Assembly (NCBI GenBank): GCA_902794155.1
Contig: CADBGN010000027.1
Coordinates: forward strand, 1-40,600
Length of the DNA stretch: 40,600 nucleotides
Origin: an uncultured Bacteroidia bacterium
GTDB taxonomy: Bacteria > Bacteroidota > Bacteroidia > Bacteroidales > F082
Direction: 5' to 3'
The notes under the pieces were generated by a model. It was not told the DNA's origin and did no database searches. It was given only the letters and a program-made list of their open reading frames with translations. The translations under genes were made by a program, and so were the position numbers. This document shows positions 5,475 to 24,425 of the stretch, piece after piece; positions within the stretch are counted from its first letter, which is position 1; each line of letters opens with the position of its first letter.

Positions 5475-5492
5475 CAAAAAAATAACCGAACT

Positions 5493-7322: not shown

Positions 7323-9121
7323 GAATCAAGATAATCGCATTGATATTGGGCTGCGTGATTTGTGTTGCAACCAAGGCTCAAAACGACACTATCATCTTTT
7401 CGGCCAAAGGCGGTTTTTATAATGATGTGTTTGCATTGCAACTCTCCAACGCTAATCCGCAGAACCATATCCGTTACACCATCAACGGCAATTGCCCGAC
7501 GGCTCAGTCTCCGCTTTACACGGCTCCTTTACAGCTTGATGCCCACCAATACTCCAAGTCGGATATCTATACGATTGTCAACACCATACCATCACAATTC
7601 TACCTTCCGAATGATGTCAAGCGGGCCATCGTTATCCGTGCCGCGGTGTTCGACCAAAGTGAGAGATGCGTGAGTCAGGTGGTCAGCAATTCCTATTTCA
7701 TCCGTTCGTTGGGCTGCGACTTTCATGGTCTGCCAGTATTGTCAATCATGGCCGATTCCTTGGCTTTGTTTGACTACGAGACGGGCATCTTCGTCCCTGG
7801 TGTCAACTATGACCCCGCAGATTCGATTGCCACGGGTAACTACAAGATGCGAGGCGATGAATGGGAGCGGCAAATCAACATGGAGTTTTACGACCCCGAC
7901 AACACGGGTATCAACCAGATTTGCGGCTTGCGTACGCATGGTGGTGCTTCGCGCTGGTTCCAACAGAAAGGCATGAAACTGTATGCCCGTGAAGAATATG
8001 GAAAAAAGCATTTTTTGTTCCGCTTTTTCAATGACTCGCCAATTGTCAAGTTCAAGCGACTCAATTTGCACCCATTCCGATGCAGCAACTGGCTACAGAT
8101 GGGCGGTACGGACTATATGTCTCAAAAAGTGGCTCGAAACCTAAGTTTTGATGCCATGGCAGTAAGGGAAACAGTTGTGTTTATCAATGGTGAATATTGG
8201 GGTATCTATACCTTGGAGGAGTGCCCCGACGAGCACTATATCAAAGAGCATTACAATGCCGACCTCGATAGCGTGACCATCATCAAATATTGGGGTATAA
8301 CCAACTACGGCGACCCAACAGAATGGCGCTCTTTTTATACATGGATTCGTGATGCTGATCTGTCTCAGCCTGAAGACTCTGCTTATGCCTATTCGCACAT
8401 GGATGTGCCAGGCTTTATCGACTATTTCCTATTCGAGACTTTTTCAGCTAACTTGGATTGGCCTGGCAACAATGTCAAAATCAGTCAAATGGCTCCTGGT
8501 AGGCCTTTTCGGATGATGTTTTACGATGGCGATGGGTGCTTCTCCTGGGCCGATTATCAAGCCATTGACAATGCACTTCATGCAGGAGGCAACAGCAGAG
8601 TGTTGAGCCATTTCATGGAAAACAAGGATTTCAGATTCCAATTCTGCAAGCGTTATTTTGAACTCAGAAACACTTGTTTTAGTTACAGTTACATGAAATC
8701 GATTTTAGATGAATACTGGAATCAAGTTCAAGGTGAAGTTGAGGACCAATACCATAGGTTCCATTTTCCGTGGAGTTTGGACAGGTGTTATGCTGATGTT
8801 CAGAAGGCCGATGATTTCCTACGCCTTCGCGACCAGTTTTTCATGGAAGAACTTAGCCCGTATCTTAGTGTCAATGAGAATATTCCAGCCGTGGTTTCGT
8901 GCCACCCCAATCCTTTCGAAGACGAAGTCCAAATCATGTTGGAATCCGAACAATCTGGGAAGGTGGAACTCGGCATCTACGATGTTTTGGGAAGGAAGGT
9001 TTTTGTTGAATCATGCCATCTAGTGAAAGGAGCAAACGTTTTCACCATTCATCCCAAACTTTCATCTGGCATGTATGTACTGAAAGTGGGTGGCTATACT
9101 CAGCGACTCGTGCGACTATAG
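7319..9121 (+). CDS. Secreted CotH-domain protein with T9SS sorting tail (copy 2)
   Basis: The ATG at 7319 overlaps the stop of copy 1 (ATGA), so the two are probably translationally coupled. It starts a signal peptide (MRIKIIALILGCVICVATKAQ), whereas the longer open frame upstream overlaps copy 1. The 600-aa product is a full-length paralogue of copy 1 with the same blocks: HIRYTINGNCPTAQS, DEWERQINMEFYDP, GLRTHGGASRW, VFINGEYWGIYTLE and MFYDGDGCF (Asp403, Asp405), then a T9SS tail with CHPNPFEDEV, GIYDVLGRKVF and SSGMYVLKVGG. Export to the outer-membrane surface by T9SS follows from known CTD function. The substrate of the CotH domain is unknown. The gene converges on the DHHW array and the two stop codons share the palindrome CTATAG (9116-9121). 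Confidence 0.82.
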   Translation: MRIKIIALILGCVICVATKAQNDTIIFSAKGGFYNDVFALQLSNANPQNHIRYTINGNCPTAQSPLYTAPLQLDAHQYSKSDIYTIVNTIPSQFYLPNDVKRAIVIRAAVFDQSERCVSQVVSNSYFIRSLGCDFHGLPVLSIMADSLALFDYETGIFVPGVNYDPADSIATGNYKMRGDEWERQINMEFYDPDNTGINQICGLRTHGGASRWFQQKGMKLYAREEYGKKHFLFRFFNDSPIVKFKRLNLHPFRCSNWLQMGGTDYMSQKVARNLSFDAMAVRETVVFINGEYWGIYTLEECPDEHYIKEHYNADLDSVTIIKYWGITNYGDPTEWRSFYTWIRDADLSQPEDSAYAYSHMDVPGFIDYFLFETFSANLDWPGNNVKISQMAPGRPFRMMFYDGDGCFSWADYQAIDNALHAGGNSRVLSHFMENKDFRFQFCKRYFELRNTCFSYSYMKSILDEYWNQVQGEVEDQYHRFHFPWSLDRCYADVQKADDFLRLRDQFFMEELSPYLSVNENIPAVVSCHPNPFEDEVQIMLESEQSGKVELGIYDVLGRKVFVESCHLVKGANVFTIHPKLSSGMYVLKVGGYTQRLVRL

Positions 9122-10846
9122 TTGAATCTTCCCGACTTTGATTAGGTGGTTGACAATCCAGCGGGCATCGAGAAGGAGTTGTTGCTCCTCGCTTATTCCG
9201 TTCTTTTGTGCTTTCTCTTGGTTCTGTTGCATGGTGATGGGATTGCTGCGCATTTGTTGCAACATGTCTGTAACTAAGCTTTCCACACGGTCGCGCTTGG
9301 CTTCTGGGTCATTCATGTCGCGCATCAAAGGCTTGCCTTCGATGATGTTGTAGGCTTCCATAAGCAATACTTGTTCAAATGACGCATTTTGGATGACGGT
9401 TTGACATGCCGACAAGTTCCACATCCATGTAGAGTCTTTCTTTATCTCGTTGATGGCCATGATTTCTTTGATTCTCGGATTGCGTATCTTTGGGAGGGTG
9501 TCGGAACACAAAGCTGGGAAATAGCGTTCGGAATGGCTGTACATGATTTGGTCGGCTTTGGGCCAGAGCATTTGCTTGTAGTTGCTATCGGTGAAGGGTG
9601 CTTCAAAAGAGGCCAGTGTGGCGGAATCATACCTAAGGCTATCGATAAGGTGGATACGGATAGGGGCTATATCTTTCTCATTAAAACATAGGTTTACAAG
9701 AGTGCGTTCGGCGAATCCTTCGGTGCCTTTGTTAATTTGGTTGCCAGTTGTGAACCAAACAATGTAATCGAAGTCCAAGAGCTTTTCTAAAAGATTCAGC
9801 TTGGTGACGCTGATGGTTTGGTCTAGGTTTTCACCATAGTAGGCAGTGGAGCCATAAAACCAGAACTCTGTGTTTTCAAACAATTCCTTGAATGGAGTAA
9901 ACAGTTGCATGGCCCAGAAATAGGAATTGCCAATGAAGAGTACCCTAGGCTTCACGCTAGTCGAGTCGTGTTCGATGCGGACCTTGTGTCTCGGATAGTA
10001 GCCGTATTGGTGTTTCATGGGGAATGTCAAGTTGAGGAGGAGTTCAAGGTCGTTGTCGTAGTCGTGATCTCGGTCGCGAGTGTGATAGGCTTCTCCTATC
10101 TTGATTTTAGGCAGATGAATGCCTTTCAATTCGCCCATGAGGCGCGACAACGAATCGACGGCATAGACGGATGGAAAGATCCAATGCGCTCCCGCTTGGG
10201 GAATCAACGGATAGTCGACCGTGTCCTTTATCTTTTGGAACCAACGCGTCATCTCTATGTGTGGGAATCCCGTTTCTTCGAAACGTCGTGCAAAATAGTC
10301 GCTGGCATTGAAGGTGGTCGTGTCTTTTTCGCCATCGGGGAGGAATTCGGGATAGAGGAAACTCTTTTCGGGGGCCATGAAGACAAGAAGCTCAACACCG
10401 TTTTCTCTCAAAATGTTGCGGGCCCAATTGAGGTATTTCACTTCTTGGTCGAATTTTTCCTTAGCCTCGTCTGTGGAGGGATGCCAACGCAACAGCTCTT
10501 GTCCGTAATAGTCCCTCACGCTTTGGGGATAATAAAGCCATCCTTGTTTCCCGCCAACAACATCCTTTGCGTAGGTTTTATGGTACAAATCCCATAGATA
10601 TTGGTTGTAAAACCTTATGATGGGCTCCCTGAAACCTATTTGCTGGCTCGTGTATGCCTCAGCTTGCTTGGCGTAGGCTCCTGAACGGTACCCGTCAAGG
10701 TCGAATTTGGGTTTTTCCGTTGCTAATGTAACGCCATTGAGTGGCTTTGTAGGGAATATATGAAGCCAACCTTGCAGCATGGGCATGAATCCCAACACCA
10801 TGAGCAGGATGAACAATACAAGGTCGTATTTCGGCTTCTTTCCCAT
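9116..10846 (-). CDS. DHHW/AlgJ-like acyltransferase partner (last gene of the array)
   Basis: The 576-aa product is a membrane-anchored SGNH-like protein: an N-terminal transmembrane segment (about residues 8-27), a periplasmic domain with VFMAPEKSFLYPEFLP, a histidine motif QAGAHWIFP (His221) and a serine block RVLFIGNSYFWAM (Ser308). In the AlgJ/AlgX/DHHW family, Ser and His with an Asp two residues before His perform O-acetyl transfer. Here the Asp position is Gly219, and the serine block is GNS rather than GDS. A C-terminal tail carries the array's repeat module (NPITMQQNQEKAQKNGISEE then LLLDARWIVNHLI). It starts immediately after the previous DHHW stop, so this MBOAT is followed by two DHHW genes. 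The acceptor substrate is unknown. Confidence 0.8.
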   Translation of the reverse strand: MGKKPKYDLVLFILLMVLGFMPMLQGWLHIFPTKPLNGVTLATEKPKFDLDGYRSGAYAKQAEAYTSQQIGFREPIIRFYNQYLWDLYHKTYAKDVVGGKQGWLYYPQSVRDYYGQELLRWHPSTDEAKEKFDQEVKYLNWARNILRENGVELLVFMAPEKSFLYPEFLPDGEKDTTTFNASDYFARRFEETGFPHIEMTRWFQKIKDTVDYPLIPQAGAHWIFPSVYAVDSLSRLMGELKGIHLPKIKIGEAYHTRDRDHDYDNDLELLLNLTFPMKHQYGYYPRHKVRIEHDSTSVKPRVLFIGNSYFWAMQLFTPFKELFENTEFWFYGSTAYYGENLDQTISVTKLNLLEKLLDFDYIVWFTTGNQINKGTEGFAERTLVNLCFNEKDIAPIRIHLIDSLRYDSATLASFEAPFTDSNYKQMLWPKADQIMYSHSERYFPALCSDTLPKIRNPRIKEIMAINEIKKDSTWMWNLSACQTVIQNASFEQVLLMEAYNIIEGKPLMRDMNDPEAKRDRVESLVTDMLQQMRSNPITMQQNQEKAQKNGISEEQQLLLDARWIVNHLIKVGKIQL

Positions 10847-12178
10847 TTAGTTCTGCTGTTTTTGCTTGTCCATTTCGATGGCATAAATGGCGTTGAGGCG
10901 GAGCATCTCGTCGAGGTCGACACCACGCTCAATGGCCTGTTGCTTGACGCTTTCGAGCCATTCGGGCACACTCTTGATGCGCTCTATGGTCTCTTCGATC
11001 AGTTTCTGCCTGCGTTTGCCATCGCGGTCGATGAAGGCTTCATTGGCGGTCTCGCAGAAGCCGAACATGTAGTCGTAGGCATACACGGAAGTGGTGATAA
11101 TCATGACGAGATCGACCTGGTCGATGACATTGTAGGCTTCAAGGTAATCGCTCACCTTGCCTAAAAATTCGATGTCTTTTGTGATGACTTCGTCGTCATA
11201 TTTCCAATATTCGCAGCGGTCGAAGGCATCGGCAAAAGTTGACTCGTGCAGCTGTATGAAATAACTATCAGCGATAACGAGGATGTTAGGTTTGCGGAGT
11301 GTGGTGTCGCTCAATGCCATGATGGGCTGAGGCATGGCTGGCTTACGGATAGGCAGCAGCAGGTTCATCAGGTCTTCAATCTCGCCGTCTTGTTTCGAGT
11401 ATTGGGTGGTGAGGTTCTCGTCGACGCAAACGATGTGCGGCATCTCCTGCCCAATGAGGCTACCGATTTTTGATAGGATAGAGTCGGCCACAAAAGGTAT
11501 GGTATGCTCAGCCCAGTGAGTGCCGTAACGAGTGTATAAGGGATATTTCGTCTGCCCTTTCAACGACTTGAAATAACTCAGGAAATCAATGTGCGGGATG
11601 CCATTTTCCTTGAAGAGTTGGGTGTAGTAGTCCTGCACGCAGAACGGCATGATGGAATCTTGATACTCTTGTGGCATGTATTCGGGATAGACCCAGGTCT
11701 TGGAAGGGGCTTCCACGAAGAGGAAAGCCGTGTTGTGTTGCTTCAGGCTGTCGATGAGTACCAAAGTCTTTTCGATGTCTTTTTGTGCCTTCGTTTTGAA
11801 GTATTCCTCCGAGCCATAGCAGTCTTTCAGTGTTTTGCCCTTGATTTCGTCAAGATAGATTTGGAGATACATCTCTTTGTTGAGCCCAGGGACGAGGGTG
11901 TTGTTGGTCGGTTTGCTGAAAAGCGAGAACAGGCATTGGTTGTAGATTCTTATGCAAGGCTCGCGGAAGCCGCTGTTGCGTTTGGCGTGGTCGGTCAGGT
12001 AGTTTTGGAAGGTGCCATCGTAGTAGGTCTTGAACGATAATTTCACGGGTTGCTCATTGGGGACATAACCCGCCAATGGTTTCATCTTGATGACATGGGT
12101 GAAGCCTTGAAGCAAGATGGCAGTAAATGCCACAAAGATGATAACGAACTGTATGAGGAAGTGTGGTTTCTTGTTCAT
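10847..12178 (-). CDS. DHHW/AlgJ-like protein paired with MBOAT copy 1
   Basis: The 443-aa product has one N-terminal membrane segment (about residues 8-28) and a periplasmic SGNH-like domain. Family blocks are NSGFREPCIRIYNQ (about 68-81), VEAPSKTWVYPEYMP (about 155-169), YTRYGTHWAEHTIPF (His221) and NILVIADSYFIQL (Ser305). Ser and His are retained; the Asp expected before His is Gly219. It ends with one copy of the C-terminal module (PEWLESVKQQAIERGVDLDE, then LRLNAIYAIEMD). It begins three bases after the MBOAT stop, so the pair is translationally linked. It most resembles the 450-aa DHHW protein at 13626-14978, which also follows an MBOAT. It presumably takes the acyl group delivered by the MBOAT and passes it to a glycan. 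Confidence 0.8.
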   Translation of the reverse strand: MNKKPHFLIQFVIIFVAFTAILLQGFTHVIKMKPLAGYVPNEQPVKLSFKTYYDGTFQNYLTDHAKRNSGFREPCIRIYNQCLFSLFSKPTNNTLVPGLNKEMYLQIYLDEIKGKTLKDCYGSEEYFKTKAQKDIEKTLVLIDSLKQHNTAFLFVEAPSKTWVYPEYMPQEYQDSIMPFCVQDYYTQLFKENGIPHIDFLSYFKSLKGQTKYPLYTRYGTHWAEHTIPFVADSILSKIGSLIGQEMPHIVCVDENLTTQYSKQDGEIEDLMNLLLPIRKPAMPQPIMALSDTTLRKPNILVIADSYFIQLHESTFADAFDRCEYWKYDDEVITKDIEFLGKVSDYLEAYNVIDQVDLVMIITTSVYAYDYMFGFCETANEAFIDRDGKRRQKLIEETIERIKSVPEWLESVKQQAIERGVDLDEMLRLNAIYAIEMDKQKQQN

Positions 12179-12181
12179 GGC

Positions 12182-13612
12182 TCAGAATCTAAAGTAAATG
12201 AAGGGGTTGAAATCGGAAACGCACAACGAACCAGCTGAGAGGATGAACAAGACCAAGGTGATGGCGAACATGGTCCACGAGAGTGGTTTGGAGTAGCTGT
12301 CGGCGAAGATGCGGTCTTGAAGTTTTTGTCCAAAGGGGACAAGAGTGAGGAAAGAGAACGCGATGGCAAGGACAAAGACGCACCAGAATTGTGCGTCGCC
12401 TGCCACCGTCAAGCCACCTTTGAAAGCGAACAGCGCTTGATAGAACGCGCCTGCATCGGCTGCCGTGTCGACGCGGAAGAGCACCCAACCCATGGCCACA
12501 AGGAAGAAGGTGATGACGACGGAGGGTAGCGTGCCTATCTTTTTTAATGCGTTTTTAAGGAAGAGTTTGTCGGCGCAGATGAACAAGCCGTGGAAAGCGC
12601 CCCAAAGGACGAAATTCCACGAGGCTCCATGCCAGAGTCCTGACAGAAGGAAACAGAGCCACAGGTTAAAATACATGCGTCCCTTGCCTTTCCGGTTGCC
12701 GCCAAGCGGGATGTAGAGGTAGTTCATGATGAAGTTGCCCAAGGTCATGTGCCAACGTTTCCAAAACTCGGTGACGCTGCGGCTGGTATAAGGGTCGTTG
12801 AAGTTTTCCGGGAACCGGAAGCCCATCATCTTGCCCAAGCCGATGGCCATGTCGCTGTAGCCAGAGAAGTCGAAGTAGATTTGGAAAGTATAGGCGAGGA
12901 TGCCAATCCAAGCCGTGCCTGTAGCCAAGTCGCCGTATGCCATGCCAAACACTTGGTCGGCGTAGGCGGCCATGGTATTGGCGATGAGCACTTTCTTTGC
13001 CAAACCGATCACGAAGCGGTAGAAACCTACCACGCGGTCTTCCATGGTGCTGGTGCGCGAGACTAATTGTGCAGCCACGCTGTTGTAGTTGACGATAGGA
13101 CCTGCGATGAGTTGCGGGAACATCATGATATATAGCACATAATCGGTCAGCTTCTGGCTAGGCGGTGTCGTTCCACGATACACATCAATGGTGTAGGTGA
13201 TGGATTGGAAGGTGAAGAACGAGATGCCGATAGGCAAAGCCACCTTCATCCAATCTACGGGTTCGTGATGTGCCCAACCCAAGATGGTGTTGAGGTTCTC
13301 CATGAAGAAGTTGGCATATTTGAAATAGAGCAGCAGCCCCAATGCCATAATCACAGAAATGGCACATAGGATTTTTTTCTTCGTTGTAGAGACGGTGTGC
13401 ACACCGTCTGTACGCCCCATCGCCCTGACGATGAAATAGTTGATAACGCATTCGCCGACAAGCAGAAACACAAAGTCGGGGGCACCGTAGGCGTAAAACA
13501 CGATGGAGAAGAGCAGGAGCGTATAGTTTCTGAATTTCTGCGGTGTGATGAAATAGGCTATCAAGAAGATAGGCAGAAAAAAGAAAAGGAAAATGTTGCT
13601 GCTGAATACCAT
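12182..13612 (-). CDS. MBOAT family O-acyltransferase, AlgI/PatA/DltB-like (copy 1)
   Basis: The 476-aa polytopic inner-membrane protein opens with MVFSSNIFLFFFLPIFLIAY, like the other two copies. MBOAT hallmarks are PIGISFFTFQSITYTIDVYR (about 127-146), YFDFSGYSDMAIGLGKMMGF (about 246-265), the RWH motif (His288) and the catalytic-site motif LSGLWHGASWNF (His328). MBOAT proteins of this type move acyl groups from cytoplasmic acyl donors to a periplasmic partner. A 28-bp DNA palindrome at 13386-13413 lies in the cytoplasmic loop near residues 67-76 and encodes TDGVHTVST. The two paralogues are five residues shorter there, which marks it as an in-frame insertion or replacement. The gene precedes two DHHW genes. 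Confidence 0.9.
   Translation of the reverse strand: MVFSSNIFLFFFLPIFLIAYFITPQKFRNYTLLLFSIVFYAYGAPDFVFLLVGECVINYFIVRAMGRTDGVHTVSTTKKKILCAISVIMALGLLLYFKYANFFMENLNTILGWAHHEPVDWMKVALPIGISFFTFQSITYTIDVYRGTTPPSQKLTDYVLYIMMFPQLIAGPIVNYNSVAAQLVSRTSTMEDRVVGFYRFVIGLAKKVLIANTMAAYADQVFGMAYGDLATGTAWIGILAYTFQIYFDFSGYSDMAIGLGKMMGFRFPENFNDPYTSRSVTEFWKRWHMTLGNFIMNYLYIPLGGNRKGKGRMYFNLWLCFLLSGLWHGASWNFVLWGAFHGLFICADKLFLKNALKKIGTLPSVVITFFLVAMGWVLFRVDTAADAGAFYQALFAFKGGLTVAGDAQFWCVFVLAIAFSFLTLVPFGQKLQDRIFADSYSKPLSWTMFAITLVLFILSAGSLCVSDFNPFIYFRF
13386..13413. repeat. 28-bp palindromic element inside MBOAT copy 1
   Basis: GTAGAGACGGTGTG (13386-13399) and CACACCGTCTGTAC (13400-13413) are inverted halves with one mismatch. 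The element is in frame, and both other MBOAT copies lack it. It shares size, the GTAGAG start and a similar end with elements at 25759-25786 and 27761-27788. Confidence 0.8.
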
Positions 13613-13625
13613 AAGTTGTTCTTAT

Positions 13626-14978
13626 TTAGGGTTGGTTATTGTTATCTTGTTCGTTCTTTTGCATTTGAAAGACATACGCGGCGTTCAACCTTAGGTTTTC
13701 TTCTACGCTGATGCCGCGTTCTCGGGCTTGTTGCTGTATGACTCCAAACCATTCCGGGTCTTTTTTGATCGACTCCATGATGGAACGGATGGCTTCTTGT
13801 TCTTGGGTGCCGCCATTGGCATAAAGCTCCAAGGCAGATTGGGTAAAGCCGCTCATGTAGTTGAGCAGGTAGTTGGAGGTGTAAAGTGCAATCACGATGT
13901 CGGCCTGTTTCAAAGTCTCTGCCGTGCCAAAGAGCTGGTTGAGGTATTTCCAGTTCAACTCGGGCCTTGAGGATATGGAGGTTTGGTTATAGAGCCAGAA
14001 GTCCCATTGTTTGAAGGCATTGACGAAGCAGGAACCTTGCAAGGGTGTAAAATAACCGTCGCCTACGACAAGTAGGTTGGGTCGGTCTTTGCCGATGGTG
14101 TCTTGCAAGGTGAATACTGGTCGTGAAACCTTGGGCTTGCACAAGGGCAAGAGCAGGTCGATGTGGGTCTCAAGTTCGCCATCTTGGTCGGAATAGTCGC
14201 GGCTGAGGTTGGGGTCAATGACCTCAACGGAGGGAAGTCGGTAGTCTGTTAAAGTCTCAATTTTTCTGAGTATCGAGTCGGCCACAAAAGGAATAGTGGC
14301 TTCTGACCAGTGAGATCCCGTTCGCGTATAGAGTCGATAGGGGAAGGTGTCTTTGATTGTTTTGAAATAGTTGTAGAAATCGATGTGTGGAATGTCGTTT
14401 TCCTTGAAAAGTTCGATGTAATATTCTGCTAGAGAGAAGTCTAAGATGCTGTCTTTGAAGGCTTCGGGCATGGTTTCGGGATAAACGGCTGTCTTGGTTG
14501 GGCAGAAGACAAACAGAAACTGGGTGCCGTGTTGGCGAAGGCTGTCGATTAGGATCAACGTCTCTTCAACATTTTTGCGGGCATCGGCCTTGGCGTTTTC
14601 GACGTTACCATATTTGTTTACGAGCAGTTTGCCTGTGATGTCGTCGAGGGCTCCTTTCAAATAGAGTTCGTGCCGACTACCTTTGTACACGTTTTCATTG
14701 GCGATTTTGCCGAAGCAGCTATAGGCAACCTGGTTGTAGCATCGGCTGAAAAACTCTCTGAAGCCTGTGCTTTTTCTGGCTTGTTGGGCAAGATATTCCT
14801 GATAGGAACCATCCAGATAAGTCTTGAAGCTTAGGTCCTGTTTCTCCACCACGATATTACTCGTGTAGGGGCTTAAAGGCTTCATTTTCACAATGCCAGT
14901 GAAGCCTTGCAGCACGATGGCTGCGAGCAATGCCGTGATGCAGACGAATTGGATGATATGGTGCCGTTGTTTATTCAT
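13626..14978 (-). CDS. DHHW/AlgJ-like protein paired with MBOAT copy 2, catalytic serine replaced
   Basis: The 450-aa product has an N-terminal membrane segment and the same periplasmic architecture as its neighbours: STGFREFFSRCYNQ, FVFCPTKTAVYPETMP, YTRTGSHWSEATIPF (His223) and NLLVVGDGYFTPL. The last block should read GDS. Residue 308 is glycine, codon GGT at 14055-14057, one transition from AGT. If real, the protein cannot act as a serine-nucleophile transferase and may be a binding or regulatory pseudoenzyme, as AlgX/AlgJ-type systems can use several partners. A nearby serine (GSCF, residue 316) is too far along to substitute obviously. The tail has one C-terminal module (PEWFGVIQQQARERGISVEE, LRLNAAYVFQMQ). 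It starts two bases after the MBOAT stop. Confidence 0.8.
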   Translation of the reverse strand: MNKQRHHIIQFVCITALLAAIVLQGFTGIVKMKPLSPYTSNIVVEKQDLSFKTYLDGSYQEYLAQQARKSTGFREFFSRCYNQVAYSCFGKIANENVYKGSRHELYLKGALDDITGKLLVNKYGNVENAKADARKNVEETLILIDSLRQHGTQFLFVFCPTKTAVYPETMPEAFKDSILDFSLAEYYIELFKENDIPHIDFYNYFKTIKDTFPYRLYTRTGSHWSEATIPFVADSILRKIETLTDYRLPSVEVIDPNLSRDYSDQDGELETHIDLLLPLCKPKVSRPVFTLQDTIGKDRPNLLVVGDGYFTPLQGSCFVNAFKQWDFWLYNQTSISSRPELNWKYLNQLFGTAETLKQADIVIALYTSNYLLNYMSGFTQSALELYANGGTQEQEAIRSIMESIKKDPEWFGVIQQQARERGISVEENLRLNAAYVFQMQKNEQDNNNQP

Positions 14979-14980
14979 GC

Positions 14981-16450: not shown

Positions 16451-16468
16451 AGTCTGGGTGTTTTCTTG

Positions 16469-18157
16469 TTATTGGAATAGGCTGCCTTCTTCGATTTGTT
16501 TGTTGATGACCCATTGGGCGTCTTGTTCCAACACCACGTCAATAGGTAATTTTCTTTCCTTGGCTTTCTGTTGGATCATCTGCATGATTTTTGGGTTGGG
16601 TCTCCAGCTCTTTATGATTTCTTGCTTTTTCATCTGGATGAATACTGCCGTGTCGAAGACGTATTCATCGCGTATGAGGGATTCGTTTTTGAGCAAACGG
16701 TTGGCTTCTTCATGCAAGGCCTCGTCGAAGCTGATGGCTTGCTTGGAGGCATACATCTGGATAGTGGTGAGCCAGTCTTTGTCGGCTTTGATGCGGTTGG
16801 TGAACTTGGCTTGTTCGATGCGTTCGGTGTTGCGGATGGTAGGCATGTCTTCCCCTTCGAGGCCAGGAATGAGTTCGGGGTTGTTTCTCAGCATCCATTC
16901 CATTTGGTCACGTAGTTGCTTTTCGGTGAGGTTGTCATAACCCTCAAGGTGACGGAACTTGTCGGCCTGTTCATTTACCGAGGCTTCAAAGAGGCTGTCG
17001 CTCACGCAAAGTTGAAGAAGCGCATCTTTGGCAAAACCGTATGTGGCTTCCCACCATTGGTGGCCTGCCGAATAGAACACCACATAATCTGCATTGAGGA
17101 TGTGGCTCAGACGGTCGATGTCTTTCACGCTCTCTGTCTTGTTGTCAAAGCCTTCGTATGCAGTGTTGTTGTAGAACCAGATTTCCCTATCTTCCATGAT
17201 TTCGCGGATCGGCATGAAGTCATTCATGCTATAGATGAACGAGTCGCCTACAAATAGCACTTTGGGCTTGCGGTGGGTGTTGTCGGGCTCTACGGTGATG
17301 TTTGACTTGTATTGCGTCTTGTCACCATGGATGCGGAAGATCAGATTGAGTGTCTCTTCGTCACCTTCCAACTTGTCTGACTCGTAGACGATAGGTGGTC
17401 CGATATGCAAAGTGGGGAACTTGGCTTCGCCGTCCAAAGTGTTGATAAAACGGAACAGTGAGTCAAAACCATAGATGGACGCGTAACGCCAATGGGAGTC
17501 GGTTCTAGGGAAGAGTGGGAATGAGGCAGTGTCTCGCATCTGGACAAACCAATCCGTCATATTGATGAAGGGGAAGCCCGTCTCTGTCATACGATGAGAG
17601 AAATACTCATCTATGTGGACTGTGGTGGTGTCGGCATCGCAGCGCGGGAGGTATTCAGGATAGACTTCGGGTTTGTCAGGTGCGATAAAAGCCAGAAACT
17701 CAATGCCGTAGTCTTTTAGTACATGCCTCACTTTGTTCATCATTCGCAGCTCGGTGTCGACATCTTTCATGGCTGCCTCATTCGATTTGTAATGATGCAG
17801 CAACTCGGTTCCAAAATGCTCTTTGACAGCTAAGGCATAATACAAGTAGCCATGTTTTCCAGGCACGATGAAATGGCAATAGGTTTTGTTATAAGCCGAC
17901 CACACATACTGGTTATAGATCCTGATGACGGGTTCTCTCAGCCCAAAATGCTCGCTAGCGTATTTCTCGATTTGTGTTTGATAGATGTTTGACTTGTAGT
18001 TGTCGAATGTCAGCTCGGGCTTGGGCGTCTCCATAATGACGCCTTTCAATGGTCTCACTGGTATGAAGTCAGTCCATTCCTGAATGATGGGCACAAAAAG
18101 GAACACCATCAACAGGGCGAACAGTATCATGCCGTATGTTATCTTGAATTTTCCCAC
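16469..18157 (-). CDS. DHHW/AlgJ-like protein paired with MBOAT copy 3, canonical DxH motif
   Basis: The 562-aa product starts at a GTG (18157) placed three bases after the MBOAT stop and aligns with the start of the 576-aa paralogue (MGKxKxxY). It has one N-terminal membrane segment, IAPDKPEVYPEYLP (about 158-171), FPRTDSHWRYAS with Asp220-Ser-His222, and KVLFVGDSFIYSM with Ser306. It is the only one of the seven with the full Asp-x-His plus Ser set that AlgX/AlgJ enzymes use, so it is the best candidate for an active transferase. The long C-terminal tail holds several versions of the repeat module, ending NPKIMQMIQQKAKERKLPID then LEQDAQWVINKQIEEGSLF. Its overall sequence is closest to the 576-aa protein. 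Confidence 0.83.
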   Translation of the reverse strand: MGKFKITYGMILFALLMVFLFVPIIQEWTDFIPVRPLKGVIMETPKPELTFDNYKSNIYQTQIEKYASEHFGLREPVIRIYNQYVWSAYNKTYCHFIVPGKHGYLYYALAVKEHFGTELLHHYKSNEAAMKDVDTELRMMNKVRHVLKDYGIEFLAFIAPDKPEVYPEYLPRCDADTTTVHIDEYFSHRMTETGFPFINMTDWFVQMRDTASFPLFPRTDSHWRYASIYGFDSLFRFINTLDGEAKFPTLHIGPPIVYESDKLEGDEETLNLIFRIHGDKTQYKSNITVEPDNTHRKPKVLFVGDSFIYSMNDFMPIREIMEDREIWFYNNTAYEGFDNKTESVKDIDRLSHILNADYVVFYSAGHQWWEATYGFAKDALLQLCVSDSLFEASVNEQADKFRHLEGYDNLTEKQLRDQMEWMLRNNPELIPGLEGEDMPTIRNTERIEQAKFTNRIKADKDWLTTIQMYASKQAISFDEALHEEANRLLKNESLIRDEYVFDTAVFIQMKKQEIIKSWRPNPKIMQMIQQKAKERKLPIDVVLEQDAQWVINKQIEEGSLFQ

Positions 18158-18160
18158 GGT

Positions 18161-19627
18161 TTAGAATCTGAAATAAATAAATGGACTGAAGCTGGAGGCG
18201 TTCAACGCGGCCACGCAGAACACAAAGGCGAAGGCGGCCACAATCCACACGGCAATGTGTTGGCCATTAGTGAAATCGTTGAAATAAACCTTCTCCTCTA
18301 CTTTTTGTCCGAACTTCGTTAGGGTGATGAAGGAGAAGAAGTCGGCCACAATCATTGTAACGTAGAGTTGCGCGTTGGCACTGAAGGGTAGTAAAGCAAA
18401 ATCGAAGGCAAACATTCGCTTGATGAGCAGCCAAGCCAAGCCGAAGTCTTCGACGCGGAAGAACACCCAAATAAGGTTCACCGTGAGGAAGGTAAGGATG
18501 ACGCTCGGCACCTTCCCGATTTTCTTCATCACGTTGCCGAGGAAGAGCTTGTCGGCACAAATGAAAAAGCCATGCAATGCGCCCCAAACGACGAAGTTCC
18601 AGGAGGCACCATGCCACAAGCCCGAGAGCAGGAAACAGACCCACAAGTTAAAGTACATTCGGCCTTTGCCCTTGCGGTTGCCGCCGAGCGGGATGTAGAG
18701 GTAGTTCATGATGAAAGCCCCCAAGGTCTTATGCCAACGACGCCAAAACTCGGTGATGGAGCGTGAAGTATAAGGGTTGTCGAAGTTTTCCGGGAACTTG
18801 AAGCCCATGATGCGACCGAGACCGATGGCCATGTCGCTGTAACCCGCAAAGTCGAAATAAATCTGGAAGGTGTAGGCCAACGACACAATCCAAGCCGTTG
18901 TGCTGTCGAGGTTGGCCACCTTGGTGAAGATGTTGGAGATTTGGTCGGCATCCAAAAGCGAGAAGTTGGCCGGACCCAAGATGGCATCCACTTGGGCGCC
19001 AATCACATCGGCGATGAGGATTTTCTTGCACAAGCCGATGACGAAGCGGTAGAAGCCCTGCAAGCGGTCGTCCATGGTTGATTCACGGCTGCGGATTTGG
19101 TCGGCCACATCGCAATAGCGGATGATGGGACCTGCAATCAGCTGTGGAAACATGGTGATATACAACACGAAATCTGTGAGTTTCTCCATGGGCTTGTTGA
19201 CGCCACGGTAGGTGTCCAAGGTGTAGGTTACGCTTTGGAACGAGAAGAATGAAATACCTATGGGCAGCATGATGCGTTTCCAAGTGAGCGGAGCGTGTCC
19301 CGTGAGCCCAAGGATGGCGTTCAAGTTTTCCATCGTGAAGTTGCCGTATTTGTAGAAAAGCAGCAAACCTATGGGGATAATGATAGACAGGCCGCAGAGG
19401 AGCTTCTTCAGGCCGGCTTTTTCGGTCTTGCACATCCATTTGACCAAGAAGAAGTTGGCCACGGTGGAGGCGATAAGTTGTATGATGAATTCAGGCGCTC
19501 CCCATGCATAGAAGATGAGCGATGCCAGCAACAGCACATAGTTCCGGATTTTCCTCGGCATAAGGAAATAGACCAGGAAGAAGGCTGGCATGAAATAGAG
19601 GAGGAAAACATTACTGCTGAATACCAT
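18161..19627 (-). CDS. MBOAT family O-acyltransferase (copy 3)
   Basis: The 488-aa polytopic protein has PIGISFFSFQSVTYTLDTYR, YFDFAGYSDMAIGLGRIMGF, the RWH motif (His299) and LLSGLWHGASWNF (His339). It appears mosaic: the first roughly 280 residues follow copy 2, while the segment from TSRSITEFW through NYLYIPLGGNRKGKGRMYFNLW to LLSGLWHGASWNFVVWG follows copy 1, including near-identity at DNA level around 18648-18715 and 12650-12720. Gene conversion between copies is a likely reason. The ATG lies inside the last 17 bases of the preceding DHHW gene, so the two overlap and are probably coupled. It is followed by the DHHW gene with the canonical DxH motif. Confidence 0.9.
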   Translation of the reverse strand: MVFSSNVFLLYFMPAFFLVYFLMPRKIRNYVLLLASLIFYAWGAPEFIIQLIASTVANFFLVKWMCKTEKAGLKKLLCGLSIIIPIGLLLFYKYGNFTMENLNAILGLTGHAPLTWKRIMLPIGISFFSFQSVTYTLDTYRGVNKPMEKLTDFVLYITMFPQLIAGPIIRYCDVADQIRSRESTMDDRLQGFYRFVIGLCKKILIADVIGAQVDAILGPANFSLLDADQISNIFTKVANLDSTTAWIVSLAYTFQIYFDFAGYSDMAIGLGRIMGFKFPENFDNPYTSRSITEFWRRWHKTLGAFIMNYLYIPLGGNRKGKGRMYFNLWVCFLLSGLWHGASWNFVVWGALHGFFICADKLFLGNVMKKIGKVPSVILTFLTVNLIWVFFRVEDFGLAWLLIKRMFAFDFALLPFSANAQLYVTMIVADFFSFITLTKFGQKVEEKVYFNDFTNGQHIAVWIVAAFAFVFCVAALNASSFSPFIYFRF

Positions 19628-21236
19628 GGTTTTCTGATTTTGTGTTTGAATGATTTGTTGTTCCAGGCCATCTCAGGGTGCCCTGATCGATGTTGTAGTT
19701 GACCACCCAATGGGCATCATCGCGAAGGGCTTGTTCGAAGGTCTTGTTGTATTTGGCCGCTTTTTCGCGTATCGATTCCATTGTTTCAGGGTTAGCCGAT
19801 AGCGCTTTCATGATGCGCTGAATTTCTCGCTCGATGAAGGTGATTGAGTCGAGTGGGACGTTGTCGTTGTTGGGCACTTTCAAGGTGCCTTGCTGGATTT
19901 GGTAGGCGACAATCCATTTTGCATCGTCGCGAACGGCTTGCTCAACGGTCTTGTGGTTTAGGCTTGCCTTCTCGCGTATTCTCTCCATCGTACTGGGCGT
20001 GGCCAATATCTTGCCTATGTTACGTTGTATTTCTCGCTCGACAAAGTCGGTCGAGTCCATGATGGCATAGCTATCTTCAACGCCCAAAGCCTCCAGCGCC
20101 TTTTGGGTGAAGCCGTCGTTCATTCTGTATTGTTGTGCTGCACAGTAGAATAATACGACAAAATCGGAAGAGAGGAGCTCTTCGGCAAGATTCAGCTCGT
20201 CAACGGAGTGGTATCGGTCGTCATAGTAAACGGTGCTGTTATAGTACCAATAGGGTGCTTTGGAGAAAAACTCATCCAAAGGAATCTGTGCGGCAATGGT
20301 CCACCAGAAGGAGTCGCCGATGACAATCATTTTCGGTTTGATGGCGGTGGTGTCGTCATCGGCCATGACATCTGCATAATAATACTTGGGTTTTTGGATG
20401 GGCCGCATCAGGTTGAGTAGGCTCTCTAGGTCATCGTCGGGGTTGCGGGCATCGTCAAGTTCCCGAGGACCGATGACCAAGTTTTTCATGTTGATGCCGC
20501 TAAGGTGCTCCATATAGCGGATGAGCGTGTCAGCTCCATGGAGTGCGGCATATTTCGTCCAATGGGTGCCTGTTTTCGGAAACAGGGCAAAGTCGACCGT
20601 GTCTTTGATTTGCAGGAACCATTGTTCTAGATTCAGATGGTTTACGCCGAGACGTGTGAGTTCCTTTTCGTTGAAGAATCGTGCTGATATTTTTGGTTCG
20701 CCTAGGTATGTTGTATCTTGGATTTCAGGAAGATGCTCGGGACAAATAAGGTCTTTGGCAGGCACCAGACAAACTATTAAGTGGACGCCGTGTGATTCAA
20801 GGACTTGTTGAAGCCGAAGCAATCGGTGTGCCTCTTTTGAAAGCATTGATGCCATCTCCGTCGAGTCGGCAGCGTAAAAACGAAATTGTCTCTGATAATA
20901 GTCGGACACCGGCCCTGGCTCATAAAACCAATTGTCTTTTCCAAAAGCGATTTGCTCTTTGCTGACATGCGTCTTTCGGTAGAAATCCCAAAGATATTGA
21001 TTGTAAAACCGAATAAGCGGCTGGCGGTAACCGAAGTGTTGTTTCAGGTGCTCTTCTGTTTGTTTTTGGAAGAGGCCGTCACGATAGCTTTCAAGGGTAA
21101 GCTCGGGCATGGGTTGATCCACAATCACTCCCCTCAAGTCTTTGAACTGATGAAAGTCAAATTGCTTTTGTAGCGACGAGGCGAAAAGCAGTATGGCTGT
21201 CAGTGCGAACAATATGGTTTTTGTTAGGGCTTTCAT
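19611..21236 (-). CDS. DHHW/AlgJ-like protein with two tandem 62-aa C-terminal repeats
   Basis: The 541-aa product has an N-terminal membrane segment (MKALTKTILFALTAILLFAS), a periplasmic SGNH-like domain with LVPAKDLICPEHLPE, FPKTGTHWTKYAAL (His225, Gly at the Asp position) and MIVIGDSFWWTIA (Ser309). After the domain come two near-copies of a 62-residue unit, residues 394-455 and 463-524, each running from FVEREIQR or FIEREIQR through MERIREKA/MESIREKA to DDAKWIVAYQI/DDAHWVVNYNI and QGTL. The ATG overlaps the previous stop as ATGA. It is one of three DHHW genes at the promoter-proximal end that have no MBOAT directly upstream, so it would have to share a downstream MBOAT or act with something else. 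Confidence 0.82.
   Translation of the reverse strand: MKALTKTILFALTAILLFASSLQKQFDFHQFKDLRGVIVDQPMPELTLESYRDGLFQKQTEEHLKQHFGYRQPLIRFYNQYLWDFYRKTHVSKEQIAFGKDNWFYEPGPVSDYYQRQFRFYAADSTEMASMLSKEAHRLLRLQQVLESHGVHLIVCLVPAKDLICPEHLPEIQDTTYLGEPKISARFFNEKELTRLGVNHLNLEQWFLQIKDTVDFALFPKTGTHWTKYAALHGADTLIRYMEHLSGINMKNLVIGPRELDDARNPDDDLESLLNLMRPIQKPKYYYADVMADDDTTAIKPKMIVIGDSFWWTIAAQIPLDEFFSKAPYWYYNSTVYYDDRYHSVDELNLAEELLSSDFVVLFYCAAQQYRMNDGFTQKALEALGVEDSYAIMDSTDFVEREIQRNIGKILATPSTMERIREKASLNHKTVEQAVRDDAKWIVAYQIQQGTLKVPNNDNVPLDSITFIEREIQRIMKALSANPETMESIREKAAKYNKTFEQALRDDAHWVVNYNIDQGTLRWPGTTNHSNTKSENHGIQQ
19665..20057 (-). repeat. Tandem duplication encoding two 62-aa repeats
   Basis: Bases 20057-19872 and 19850-19665 encode two 62-residue units spaced by 69 residues at the C-terminus of the 541-aa DHHW protein. 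Both keep the order EREIQR, IREKA, DDAxW, QGTLxxP. Paralogues end with one or two more diverged copies. Confidence 0.8.
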
Positions 21237-22822
21237 TTGTGAGGCGGAATTTGCAAAGTGCCATGCTCGATTTGGTAGTTCACAATCCAGCGGGCATCGT
21301 CGTGGATGGTTTGTTCTAAGGTTTTTCCTTGTTGTTGGGCTTTCTCACGCATGGCCTCCATCTGGGCCTCGTTAGACCTGATGTTGGCTATGATTTTCTC
21401 CGTTTCTTGCTCGATGATGTACAAAGAATCTTTGGTAAGGCATGATTCCACCCATTTCGAACGTTTCGTCGGGATGCTGTCGTTTAATGCGGGGAAAAAT
21501 CGCTCAGGGTGGCTGTCGATAAGCCATTGCGCTTCGTTGTGGATGAGCTCTTCCAAAGGTTTGCCTTGCGCTTGGCTCGCTTTTTGCAGCCTCCCTATCC
21601 AATCTGAATCGGAACGGATGTTTTGTTCCAGCTTTGCATGGGCAGACTCTATCTCCTCGGGGTCGTAGCAGAGGGCAAGCAAGGCTTTTTTCGTGAAGTT
21701 GTTGTTCAGTTTATAGAGTTGTGCTGAGCTGTAGAACAGGACGATGAAGTCGGCTGAGAGGAGCTCTTTTGTAAGGTTAATGTCTTTTACCGAGTGGTGG
21801 ATAGGATCGTAGTAGATGGAGCTGTTGTAGTACCAATAGGGAAATTCGGCGAAGAATTCCTGAATGGGCACTTGATAGACGATGTTCCACCAGAACGAAT
21901 CGCCGATGATAATCATTTTAGGCTTTACAGCCGTAGAGTCCTTATCGGAGGTCGCTGTTGCGTAATAATACTGGGGTCTTGGCAGCGGCCTGATTAGGTT
22001 GAGCAGATTTTCAAGGTCGGTGTCGGCTTCTTGGGCGTCTTGGAGGGTCCGTGGCCCGATGACCATGTTGGGGATGTTGATGTTGCCCAAGTGTTCCATG
22101 TACCGGAAAAGCGTGTCGGCGGCAAAGAGAGAGCTGTATTTCGACCAATGCGTTCCTGTTTTCGGGAATATGGTGAAGTCGGCGGTGTCTTTCATCTGTT
22201 GGAAAAACTCGCCCATGTCGAGAACGTTGACATCAAGTCGTTTGTATTCATCCTTGAGGACCGACCTTGCCGACATCTTTGGCTCGTCGTCATATCTGGT
22301 GTCTTGTTTTTCAGGAAGATGTTCGGGATAAAGCATGTCTTTCGAAGGCACTAGGCAAACGAAAAGATGTGTGCCGTATGGCTCAAGGATGTGCTGCAAC
22401 TGATACACACGTTTGGCCTCACTGAGTAATTGCTCTGTCATCTCTTTTGCAGAGGAAGCGTGTTGGTGATATTGGATTTGGTAATAGTCGTCAACCGACC
22501 AGGGCTCATACAGCCAGCCGTCTTTGCCTAATGTGAGTATGCCTCGGTTACCGTTCGAGGTTTTGTAAAAGTCCCAAAGATACTGGTTGTAAAAACGGAT
22601 AAGTGGCTCGCGGAATCCAAAATGCTGCTTCAGAAAGGCTTCTGTGCTATCTTGAAAGCCACCGTCGCGATAGTTTTGGAAAGTCAAGGCGGGTTTAGGG
22701 CTGGGTATTTCAACGCCATTCAGCTTCTTGAAATCCCACAAATGTGTGATTTTCTGAAACATGGATGCGAAAAGGAGCAGTCCAGTTAGGGTGAATAATA
22801 TGACCTTGACGAGGTTTTTCAC
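21233..22822 (-). CDS. DHHW/AlgJ-like protein with two C-terminal modules
   Basis: I place the start at a GTG at 22822 rather than the upstream ATG at 22870. A -7 box (22844-22851) lies inside the longer frame, and the GTG product begins (M)KNLVKVILFTLTGLLLFASM, matching MKALTKTILFALTAILLFAS of the next gene. The 529-aa product has the membrane anchor, LVPSKDMLYPEHLPE, FPKTGTHWSKYSSL (His225), and MIIIGDSFWWNIV (Ser309). The tail has a diverged module (DWIGRLQKASQAQGKPLEEL then NEAQWLIDSHPERFFPALND) and a typical one (MEAMREKAQQQGKTLEQT, DDARWIVNYQIEHGTL). The FPALNDSxPxKR linker recurs in the next gene upstream. Its own promoter suggests it can be expressed separately from the first gene of the array. 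Confidence 0.82.
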   Translation of the reverse strand: MKNLVKVILFTLTGLLLFASMFQKITHLWDFKKLNGVEIPSPKPALTFQNYRDGGFQDSTEAFLKQHFGFREPLIRFYNQYLWDFYKTSNGNRGILTLGKDGWLYEPWSVDDYYQIQYHQHASSAKEMTEQLLSEAKRVYQLQHILEPYGTHLFVCLVPSKDMLYPEHLPEKQDTRYDDEPKMSARSVLKDEYKRLDVNVLDMGEFFQQMKDTADFTIFPKTGTHWSKYSSLFAADTLFRYMEHLGNINIPNMVIGPRTLQDAQEADTDLENLLNLIRPLPRPQYYYATATSDKDSTAVKPKMIIIGDSFWWNIVYQVPIQEFFAEFPYWYYNSSIYYDPIHHSVKDINLTKELLSADFIVLFYSSAQLYKLNNNFTKKALLALCYDPEEIESAHAKLEQNIRSDSDWIGRLQKASQAQGKPLEELIHNEAQWLIDSHPERFFPALNDSIPTKRSKWVESCLTKDSLYIIEQETEKIIANIRSNEAQMEAMREKAQQQGKTLEQTIHDDARWIVNYQIEHGTLQIPPHK

Positions 22823-22843
22823 TTTGAAAAATACATTAATCTG

Positions 22844-22851
22844 CAAAAATA
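22844..22851 (-). promoter_or_regulatory. -7 box of an internal promoter, duplicated from 24375-24382
   Basis: TATTTTTG on the minus strand, 22 bases before the GTG at 22822. The surrounding 41 bases (22839-22879) align without gaps to 24370-24410 at 33 of 41 positions, including a shared TTTCGGGAYGATGARGAT block upstream. Confidence 0.6.
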
Positions 22852-22942
22852 CGAAAAATATCCTCATCATCCCGAAAAACCTTTGTTTTAAGACCTGAAA
22901 ACGAATAAGAAACCGTATAAGGCAAGGAGAAAAGGGCTACTT

Positions 22943-24355
22943 TTAATTCTGGATGATGGTATTAGTTTGCTTGACGAGGCGCTCAGCCTTGCTCGAACGC
23001 TTGAGGGGAAGGCTGTCGTTTAGGGCGGGAAAACATGCTTCGGGGTGTTTTTCAATGAAATAAGCCGATTCCATGTTCAGTACGGAGTCTACTGGGATGT
23101 TGAGGTTTTCTGCCCTTTGTGTGATGGAGGCTATCCAAGTAGGGTTGAGTTGGATTCGTTCTTTCATCTCGTTTTTCAATTGGTCGATTTCGTCGTCATC
23201 ATAGCACCATTCCAACAGGAAGCGTTCAGCGAAACCGTTGCCAAGCTCATATTGTTGTGGTGTGCTGTAGGCCAGCATGATGAAATCGGACGACAGCACC
23301 TCTTCAAACGGGTCAACTTCTGCAATGGGGCGCTCATAGGAACCTGTGTAATAGGCGGTGCTGAAATAATACCAATAGGGATAGGTACCGAATATTTTCT
23401 TGAATGGGCTGTGGTTGAGCAAGTTCCAATAGAAAGAATCGCCTATGGTAATGAGTTTGGGCTTCACGGCTGTCGGGTCTTTGTCGAGACGGGTTTTGGC
23501 GTAATAGTTTGGCGCTCTTTTCAAGGGTCGTATCAGGTTCAACCATTGCTCCAAGTCATCGTCGGGCTCTTTGGTTCTGACATATTTTTCCCCAATGCTG
23601 AAGTTCTGGATGTTGATATGTCCCAAATCCTCCATATAGCGGATCAGGCTGTCGGCCACATACATCGAAGCCAGGTTGCTCCAATGGGTGCCCGTTTGTG
23701 GAAAGAGTAGAAAATCGGCGGTGTCTTTCATCTGTTGAAACCATTCCCCTGCATCTATATAGTTGATACCCAAAGCTTCAAAACGTTGATGCAGGAAGTC
23801 GTGGGCAGAGAAGACTTTCTCTCGGTGGTATTTGGTGTTTTCAGGAATGTGTTCGGGGTAAATCTGTTCTTTTCCAGGTTCCAATAAGACGAACAGATGG
23901 ATGTTTCTCTCTTCAAGGATTTGTTGAACTTGAGAAATCATAAGTGACTTTTTTCCAAGAATTTGCGCCATTTGAAGGCTATCTTCTGCATATTCCCAGG
24001 AATTCCCTTCGTAATATTCCTTCACATAGCCGGATTCATAATACCATCCATCGTCGCTGACAAAAACCCAACTCCTGTCTTTGGCGAAGGTTTTTCCGTA
24101 GAAGTCCCAAATGTATTGGTTGTAAAGGCGCGTCAAAGGTTCACGAAATCCATAATGCTGCTGTAGGTAAGCCTCAACACCCTCTTGGAACTGATAGTCC
24201 TTCCATCGTTCGATAGTCAACTTGGGTTTGGGTTGCTCTTCCATGACGCCAGCCAGTTTCTTGAATTTGAACAGGCCAGTTGTTTGTTGTATCGGAAAGA
24301 GAAACAACAATGTGGCTGTCAAGGCAAATAGTATGACCTTTGTTCGGCTGGACAT
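22943..24355 (-). CDS. DHHW/AlgJ-like protein, first gene of the array
   Basis: The 470-aa product starts MSSRTKVILFALTATLLFLF (membrane anchor) and carries LLEPGKEQIYPEHIPE, FPQTGTHWSNLASM (His224) and LITIGDSFYWNLL (Ser307), so Ser and His are kept and the Asp position is glycine. The tail has one module (PTWIASITQRAENLNIPVD, MESAYFIEKHPEACFPALND) followed by SLPLKRSSKAERLVKQ, which looks like the start of a second module cut short by the stop. The promoter box is at 24375-24382. It is divergent from the U32 gene with only 70 bases between starts. Together with the next two genes it forms a DHHW-only triplet before the first MBOAT. Confidence 0.82.
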   Translation of the reverse strand: MSSRTKVILFALTATLLFLFPIQQTTGLFKFKKLAGVMEEQPKPKLTIERWKDYQFQEGVEAYLQQHYGFREPLTRLYNQYIWDFYGKTFAKDRSWVFVSDDGWYYESGYVKEYYEGNSWEYAEDSLQMAQILGKKSLMISQVQQILEERNIHLFVLLEPGKEQIYPEHIPENTKYHREKVFSAHDFLHQRFEALGINYIDAGEWFQQMKDTADFLLFPQTGTHWSNLASMYVADSLIRYMEDLGHINIQNFSIGEKYVRTKEPDDDLEQWLNLIRPLKRAPNYYAKTRLDKDPTAVKPKLITIGDSFYWNLLNHSPFKKIFGTYPYWYYFSTAYYTGSYERPIAEVDPFEEVLSSDFIMLAYSTPQQYELGNGFAERFLLEWCYDDDEIDQLKNEMKERIQLNPTWIASITQRAENLNIPVDSVLNMESAYFIEKHPEACFPALNDSLPLKRSSKAERLVKQTNTIIQN

Positions 24356-24374
24356 TTCGAGATGGGATTATCTG

Positions 24375-24382
24375 CAAAAATA
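24375..24382 (-). promoter_or_regulatory. -7 box of the main promoter of the MBOAT/DHHW array
   Basis: TATTTTTG on the minus strand, 19 bases before the ATG at 24355. It lies within a 41-base block repeated at 22839-22879 and shares the 70-base divergent region with the U32 promoter. Confidence 0.6.
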
Positions 24383-24413
24383 GGAAATTAATCTTCATCG
24401 TCCCGAAATTCCT

Positions 24414-24421: not shown

Positions 24422-24425
24422 CAGC

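Follow-up and report, generated by a model that had tools for sequence, protein, structure and literature searches.

An expanded array of MBOAT and AlgJ-type SGNH genes, a likely O-acylation island in uncultured F082-type Bacteroidales

Introduction

Alginate, cellulose, peptidoglycan and secondary wall polymers are decorated by relays between membrane-bound O-acyltransferases (MBOATs) and SGNH proteins, and to our knowledge it is not settled how such a relay pairs a given donor with the correct acceptor enzyme. Here we analyze a locus of this kind in a stretch of 40,600 nucleotides from an uncultured Bacteroidia bacterium (Bacteroidales; F082), hereafter the window, which is the whole of one contig (CADBGN010000027.1, C27) of the 3.28-Mb assembly GCA_902794155.1 (205 contigs, 88.55% completeness, 3.66% contamination). 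Ten consecutive open reading frames (ORFs) occupy positions 9116-24355 of its minus strand, three of them encoding MBOATs and seven encoding SGNH proteins of the ALGX family. We consider it likely that the array represents an O-acylation island of AlgI/AlgJ-like type, in expanded form, that would serve an envelope polymer.

Excerpts of one study (PMC12148441) report that PatA of C. jejuni auto-acetylates the tyrosine of a C-terminal FXYXXF motif, that PatB of N. gonorrhoeae takes the acetyl group from the acetyl-tyrosine peptide, and that the MBOAT histidine has a catalytic role. Excerpts of another (PMC9487903) give PxK and HW as AlgJ signatures, place the aspartate of the catalytic triad within (R/K)TDTHW, and describe a weak esterase activity of AlgJ and AlgX in vitro.

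With the Pseudomonas AlgI/AlgJ/AlgX(/AlgF) system the array shares the combination of MBOAT and circularly permuted SGNH partners (histidine motif before serine), the AlgJ-type PxK and xHW motifs, and a fold match to AlgJ (E 4e-10). It differs in having three MBOATs and seven partners, in the absence of AlgF or any alginate gene among 29 Pfam-scanned window proteins, in a triad aspartate that is mostly glycine, and in C-terminal helical modules that replace the carbohydrate-binding module of AlgX. Gram-negative PatA/PatB is similar in the C-terminal FXYXXF shuttle motif of the MBOAT and in the handover to a periplasmic SGNH serine (PMC12148441, excerpts), whereas here the genes form an array, and the eight fold matches at E≤0.001 do not include Gram-negative PatB. 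The Gram-positive DltB/DltX/DltD system resembles it in MBOAT profile (TIGR04091, 144-152 bits, below the cut-off of 375) and in the acyl-tyrosine shuttle; in the array, by contrast, the shuttle peptide is on the MBOAT itself, and no DltA, DltC or DltD match was found among the ten array proteins. Finally, PatA1/PatB1 of Bacillus cereus, which acts on the secondary cell wall polymer and belongs to the DHHW family, also pairs an MBOAT with an HW-motif SGNH protein (fold E 4e-5), but the array partners fall in PF16822 and have no Pfam DHHW match. No description of a multi-MBOAT array was found in the open-licence papers searched.

Results

Read from its 5' end the array runs S,S,S,M,S,M,S,M,S,S (S, SGNH; M, MBOAT), and its nine junctions measure from -17 to +72 nt, with all but one between -17 and +18 (Table 1). 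All ten proteins exceed the curated Pfam cut-offs: PF03062 is found in the three MBOATs (112, 89 and 109 bits, cut-off 27) and PF16822 (ALGX) in the seven SGNH proteins (32-60 bits, cut-off 26.5). A sequence-only reading of the window had described ten minus-strand genes of two protein types in this order and at these coordinates, with most junctions overlapping or within a few bases, and the ORFs and Pfam matches bear this out. It had also called the partners DHHW/AlgJ-AlgX-like, a description of which the AlgJ/AlgX part stands: at E≤0.001 PF16822 is the only Pfam match in all seven, and the Pfam DHHW family (BcPatB1 type, TDHHW) was ruled out, the histidine motif of the window proteins being GTHW, GAHW, GSHW or DSHW.

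The array was compared with 73 loci recovered by searching genome contigs with one array MBOAT. These belong to metagenome-assembled genomes (MAGs) labelled as uncultured Bacteroidales, Bacteroidia or Bacteroidetes, with rumen or herbivore gut as the source of many. Identity and class content, not taxonomy, served to sort them into 62 array-type loci and 11 more distant ones; by hand, L148 was put in and L144 left out, and the thresholds that define the gene classes (D1, M1 and so on) are our own choice. As the loci are clipped by 10-kb flanks and by contig ends, gene counts are lower bounds, and not all loci represent distinct genomes (L117 and L137 are from one assembly). Antisense ORFs inside the arrays (cluster c57 and others) were considered as unknown genes and judged spurious from their sequences; counts were therefore taken from profile matches on all ORFs.

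At least two MBOAT and at least three SGNH genes were found in 44 of the 62 array-type loci and in none of the 11 more distant ones. Ten or more genes are present in six array-type loci, with maxima of 4 MBOAT + 7 SGNH and 3 + 8, and SGNH genes outnumber MBOATs in 52, so that both the multi-gene nature of the system and the excess of partners over MBOATs, as first read from the window, recur in its relatives. It had been proposed that single pairs in relatives would speak against a dedicated system: one pair or less does occur in 8 of the 62 array-type loci (some of them cut by contig ends) and in 8 of the 11 more distant loci, to be set against the 44 larger arrays. Given the single pairs of the distant loci, the pair appears to be the simpler form and the array its expansion. 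At the level of genomes, SGNH genes of this type were found in 18 of 23 same-genus relatives and, elsewhere in the order, in 3 of 16 genomes (22 of 40 including the window's own genome).

The three window MBOATs all carry the motif SGLWHG, whose histidine we read as the catalytic MBOAT histidine, and all end in FIYFRF, which fits the FXYXXF acyl-shuttle motif. The same end was found in 141 of the 147 MBOAT ORFs of the 73 loci; of the other six, one ends in FIYFKF and five otherwise, at least two of these being cut by contig ends. By profile, the solved relatives of the array MBOATs are DltB structures (E 8e-25). In a tree of 75 rows, 73 of them different and with long branches flagged, each of the window's three MBOATs lies in a group of its own, with starred support, and shares 98-99% identity with a gene from the array of another record. 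These groups with their outside orthologues, together with the observation that D7 comes after every one of the 11 M4 genes, indicate from sequence that the paralogues are old and have been kept apart, as separately inherited lineages. Four further single MBOATs were seen in the same genome, on contigs C16, C37, C51 and C146 (L081-L084); all end in FIYFQF, and the one on C16 is followed by a different gene of 490 codons that is partner-like in appearance.

Of the 362 SGNH sequences gathered, 300 differed from one another, and removal of one without the motif columns left an alignment of 299. HW is retained in all 299 and the serine in 288, while the triad aspartate position holds glycine in 222 and aspartate in 40. 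In the protein encoded at 21233-22870 H241 precedes S325, the circularly permuted order, and the column order is alike throughout the 299. P175, K177, H241 and W242 are invariant in 57 rows and correspond to the AlgJ-type PxK and HW signatures; D252, 11 residues past the histidine, is also invariant in the SGNH alignments and might stand in for the triad aspartate. A profile search against solved structures returned AlgJ (4o8v, E 9e-8) as the best relative, and the AlphaFold2 (AF2) model of the 21233-22870 protein, with a high predicted local distance difference test score (pLDDT 91.7), matched AlgJ, AlgX and PatB1 in the PDB with E from 4e-10 to 4e-4, AlgJ being the best.

The catalytic serine is present in six of the seven window proteins; in the 13626-14978 gene it is replaced by glycine, as in 11 of the 299 SGNH proteins in total. 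Ten of these 11 could be mapped to classes, and in eight (L085, L088, L093, L098, L128, L142, L148 read on its own strand, and the window) the serine-less gene stands directly before M3, with another D1 gene directly after M3. As for the two other mapped genes, the contig ends after the gene in L086 and the next MBOAT is cut in L094; the eleventh (L019) stands directly before an MBOAT that is followed by another SGNH gene. Since the dead paralogue is conserved beside an MBOAT, a non-catalytic role is suggested, and the 13626-14978 protein may be a binding or positioning subunit. What is new in the array is this serine-less paralogue kept beside one MBOAT lineage, together with glycine in place of the triad aspartate in six of seven partners.

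A module of about 42 residues, recognized by a profile seeded with seven copies, is found once or twice in the C-terminal part of all seven window SGNH proteins. In the AF2 model of the 21233-22870 protein it corresponds to two three-helix units (404-453 and 482-535). Against the PDB it matched designed repeat proteins only, with no stretch passing alone, and against Pfam and NCBIfam isolated weak matches only (best E 0.012 and 0.032), with no natural family; it is thus a new, unnamed helical unit, without a family, common to all seven partners. In the window's own genome the 11 module matches with E<0.01 all lie within the seven SGNH genes, the next match having E 0.43. Among SGNH proteins of at least 400 residues, it is carried by 210 of 226 in array-type loci and by 12 of 12 in the more distant ones.

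Beyond these loci the module was found in 23 of 40 relatives and in none of the five same-genus genomes without SGNH genes; the listed same-genus matches all fall, by coordinates, in SGNH array genes or in a gene for a GH16-like lipoprotein described below. In wider draws it was present in 88 of 295 genomes of the order (own genome included, E≤1e-4) and in 0 of 147 other genomes of the phylum. The carriers in the 29 best loci were 19 SGNH proteins, 10 proteins called GH16-like from the sequence that they share, 2 membrane proteins and a single fragment of 78 residues. Since the 73 loci were fetched with an MBOAT, they were not counted for MBOAT-SGNH linkage; when the module was used to fetch 20 loci of the order, an SGNH gene of this kind was present in 16 and accompanied by an MBOAT in 15 of these, and none of the 20 has more than two MBOATs or more than two SGNH genes. 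The G028 locus has the SGNH gene without an MBOAT. In 20 wider loci the module also occurs on large membrane proteins (loci L189, L191, L192, L196, L200, L204 and L156), several of them beside GT2 genes or MBOAT-SGNH pairs; a Pfam scan of eight such proteins gave PMT_2 in two (L189:8096-9727, L156:7613-9385) and no family in six, which is suggestive of a link between the module and GT-C glycosyltransferases. In L199 a protein of 464 residues with two modules (8139-9533, +) directly follows an MBOAT; it was missed by the SGNH profile and has a weak Pallilysin match only (E 0.008).

The GH16-like lipoprotein has one copy of the module and the motif EIDIEI (for example L023:17726-19699, -). Ten same-genus genomes have its gene, which lies no more than about 8 kb away on the contig of the array or, in two of them (G004 and G019), is divided between contig ends. 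The signature of GH16 is ExDxE, and EIDIEI is invariant in 20 of 20 aligned proteins from the genus; PF00722 scores 17.9-19.8 bits in four of them, below its cut-off of 22, and three order-level proteins have no Pfam match. The AF2 model shows three helices at the module (149-197) and is poor overall (pLDDT 55.4), too poor for a fold search. As the module is present on this lipoprotein near the arrays of relatives as well as on the SGNH proteins, a common docking partner is probable. Some relatives have membrane proteins of the sulfatase type (PF00884), and an AT3 acyltransferase, inside the array or adjoining it (L031:4781-7204, +; L193:3409-7450, +).

With regard to the other neighbors, the 62 array-type loci contain U32 (42 loci), GH16-like (28), CotH (26) and S46 (16) genes, and in G005, G009, G015 and G017 small arrays lie elsewhere, with no adjoining U32, CotH or S46 gene. 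CotH homologues (E≤1e-10) are present in 15 of 19 genus genomes with SGNH genes and in none of the five without (Fisher p 0.003, a value that ignores the relatedness of the genomes); they were also absent from all six genomes of a second set, four of which are among those five. The U32 peptidase that borders the window array is probably not part of its function: G011, which has no SGNH gene, and G271 and G456, which have no module, each retain a U32 homologue with no adjoining array. An empty array slot in these three genomes could not be shown, the neighbors of their U32 homologues matching no genes beside four arrays of the genus.

In the window the array is separated from the U32 gene by a divergent region that carries TATTTTTG on the minus strand and TAATTTTG on the plus strand, both fitting TAnnTTTG, which we take to be the consensus of the -7 box. 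At its other end the array converges, with a 6-nt overlap, on the nearer of two adjoining CotH-kinase-domain genes (5322-9121, +). Further flanking genes encode S46 and C69 peptidases, HMG-CoA reductase, riboflavin kinase, a semialdehyde dehydrogenase and a TonB-receptor-type protein, and a gene of the PD-(D/E)XK nuclease superfamily (28087-28473, -; PF13366, 146 bits) adjoins that for HMG-CoA reductase. That no glycan synthesis gene is present, as had been noticed from the sequence, holds for the 19 flanking proteins scanned with Pfam, in which no glycosyltransferase or polymerase was found (4 of the 19 have no family). Nor was an acceptor pathway identified in flanks of up to 20 kb around 13 same-genus arrays, in a survey of clusters common to at least three genomes in which eight representatives were read, few were Pfam-scanned, and most flanking clusters are unannotated.

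Table 1. Features of the array and its borders in the window.
Feature	Position	Strand	Evidence
SGNH, class D3, first array gene, 1 C-terminal module	22943..24355	-	PF16822 55.9 bits
SGNH, class D5, 2 modules, AF2 pLDDT 91.7	21233..22870	-	PF16822 60.2 bits; closest fold AlgJ 4o8v
SGNH, class D5, 2 modules	19611..21236	-	PF16822 46.2 bits
MBOAT, class M1, C-terminus FIYFRF, SGLWHG	18161..19627	-	PF03062 108.7 bits; tree
SGNH, class D2, DSHW motif (Asp retained), 2 modules	16469..18157	-	PF16822 33.1 bits
MBOAT, M1 by clustering, tree lineage separate from 18161, C-terminus FIYFRF	14981..16450	-	PF03062 89.0 bits
SGNH paralogue, class D1, nucleophile Ser to Gly (GDG), 1 module	13626..14978	-	PF16822 37.3 bits
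MBOAT, class M3, C-terminus FIYFRF	12182..13612	-	PF03062 112.3 bits; tree
SGNH, class D1, Ser retained (ADS), 1 module	10847..12178	-	PF16822 33.4 bits
SGNH, class D4, last array gene, 2 modules (one weak, E 0.004)	9116..10846	-	PF16822 32.0 bits
Divergent region, 70 nt, between array and U32 gene	24356..24425	.	sequence read
CotH-kinase-domain protein, type IX secretion tail	7250..9121	+	PF08757 93 bits, PF18962 32.8 bits
Second CotH-kinase-domain protein, type IX secretion tail	5322..7322	+	PF08757 120 bits, PF18962 35.9 bits
U32 peptidase, array-bordering	24426..26261	+	PF01136 244 bits

Discussion

Taken at the level of sequence, the array is a real, conserved and accessory locus, unusual in size, whose predicted function is O-acylation of the AlgI/AlgJ kind. 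In the mechanism that we propose, an MBOAT would use the histidine of SGLWHG to acquire an acyl group at the membrane (acetyl, with acetyl-CoA as its donor, is the most likely), and would load the group onto the tyrosine of its own C-terminal FIYFRF peptide; the peptide would pass it to the serine of a periplasmic SGNH partner, presumably membrane-anchored, which would then esterify an envelope polymer. Three MBOAT lineages would in this way serve seven SGNH partners, with the serine-less one beside the M3 MBOAT possibly acting to bind or position, and the module would dock all seven SGNH proteins to a common partner. Since the seven partners differ in sequence, they probably differ also in acceptor site or polymer.

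Several observations weigh against this interpretation. SGNH genes are missing from five of the 23 same-genus relatives, one of the five genomes being 100% complete, and the function is therefore classed as accessory. The triad aspartate is retained in one of the seven window partners and is glycine at the AlgJ signature position in the other six, which thus lack the usual triad acid, and the structural support comes from one modelled protein of the seven. The module has no match in 16 of the 226 longer SGNH proteins of the array-type loci, nor in G009; the GH16-like gene has no match in the window's own genome, at 88.55% completeness, and so seems not to be needed there; and no gene for an acceptor polymer was found in the window.

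The alternatives differ widely in merit. A MAG-type assembly of 205 contigs, with 88.55% completeness and 3.66% contamination, could in principle duplicate or collapse repeats, and the sequence-only reading had itself raised a collapsed-repeat artefact as a risk. When the DNA of the array is compared with itself, the best non-self matches reach 77% across 449 nt and 70% across 1480 nt, and overall, in stretches above 100 nt, its paralogues are only 65-77% identical in DNA; related arrays are present in many other genomes, where each window MBOAT has its near-identical counterpart, and in another MAG record (L086) the first seven gene classes and their order are identical up to the contig end. 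On account of this divergence and of the orthologous arrays in other MAGs the artefact was ruled out, and we regard it as extremely improbable. It is also very unlikely that the SGNH proteins are mainly esterases and that the array balances acylation against deacylation of one polymer: their superfamily is shared with carbohydrate esterases, and AlgJ and AlgX show the weak in vitro activity mentioned above (PMC9487903, excerpts), but both profile and fold group them with the acetyltransferases AlgJ, AlgX and PatB1, and nearly all the module-fetched loci with an SGNH gene (15 of 16) also hold an MBOAT.

A more serious contender is that the array is a cluster of independent MBOAT-SGNH pairs, each with its own acceptor, which would form a store of diversity for surface decoration (for example, against phages or host immunity) without any common complex. 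Locus composition does vary widely, from 1 to 4 MBOAT and from 1 to 8 SGNH genes, classes travel together as M4 and D7 do, and single pairs stand alone in the more distant loci. Nonetheless, strict one-to-one pairing cannot hold where SGNH genes outnumber MBOATs, as they do in the window and in most array-type loci; a serine-less paralogue should not transfer alone; and the module is common to the seven partners and is found nowhere else in their genome. We therefore judge independent pairs to be rather unlikely. The shared module and the conserved serine-less partner lead us to lean towards a shared machine over several acceptors. Going further, we suggest only tentatively that the module marks the members of a periplasmic assembly for glycan finishing, not described before, in uncultured Bacteroidales. 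In it, MBOATs loaded with acyl-tyrosine would feed several module-tagged SGNH proteins (one of them catalytically dead); the module would dock these together with the GH16-like lipoprotein, and with GT-C-like glycosyltransferases in other lineages, so that a single machine would place several decorations on one polymer.

The genus offers a natural series of loci, the smallest with one pair and the largest with 4 MBOATs and 7 partners or with 3 MBOATs and 8 partners; the series includes a partner that lacks the serine, a shuttle peptide that hardly varies, and a module common to the acceptor enzymes and a glycan-related neighbor. Partner choice and the assembly of MBOAT-SGNH relays thereby become testable in this genus.

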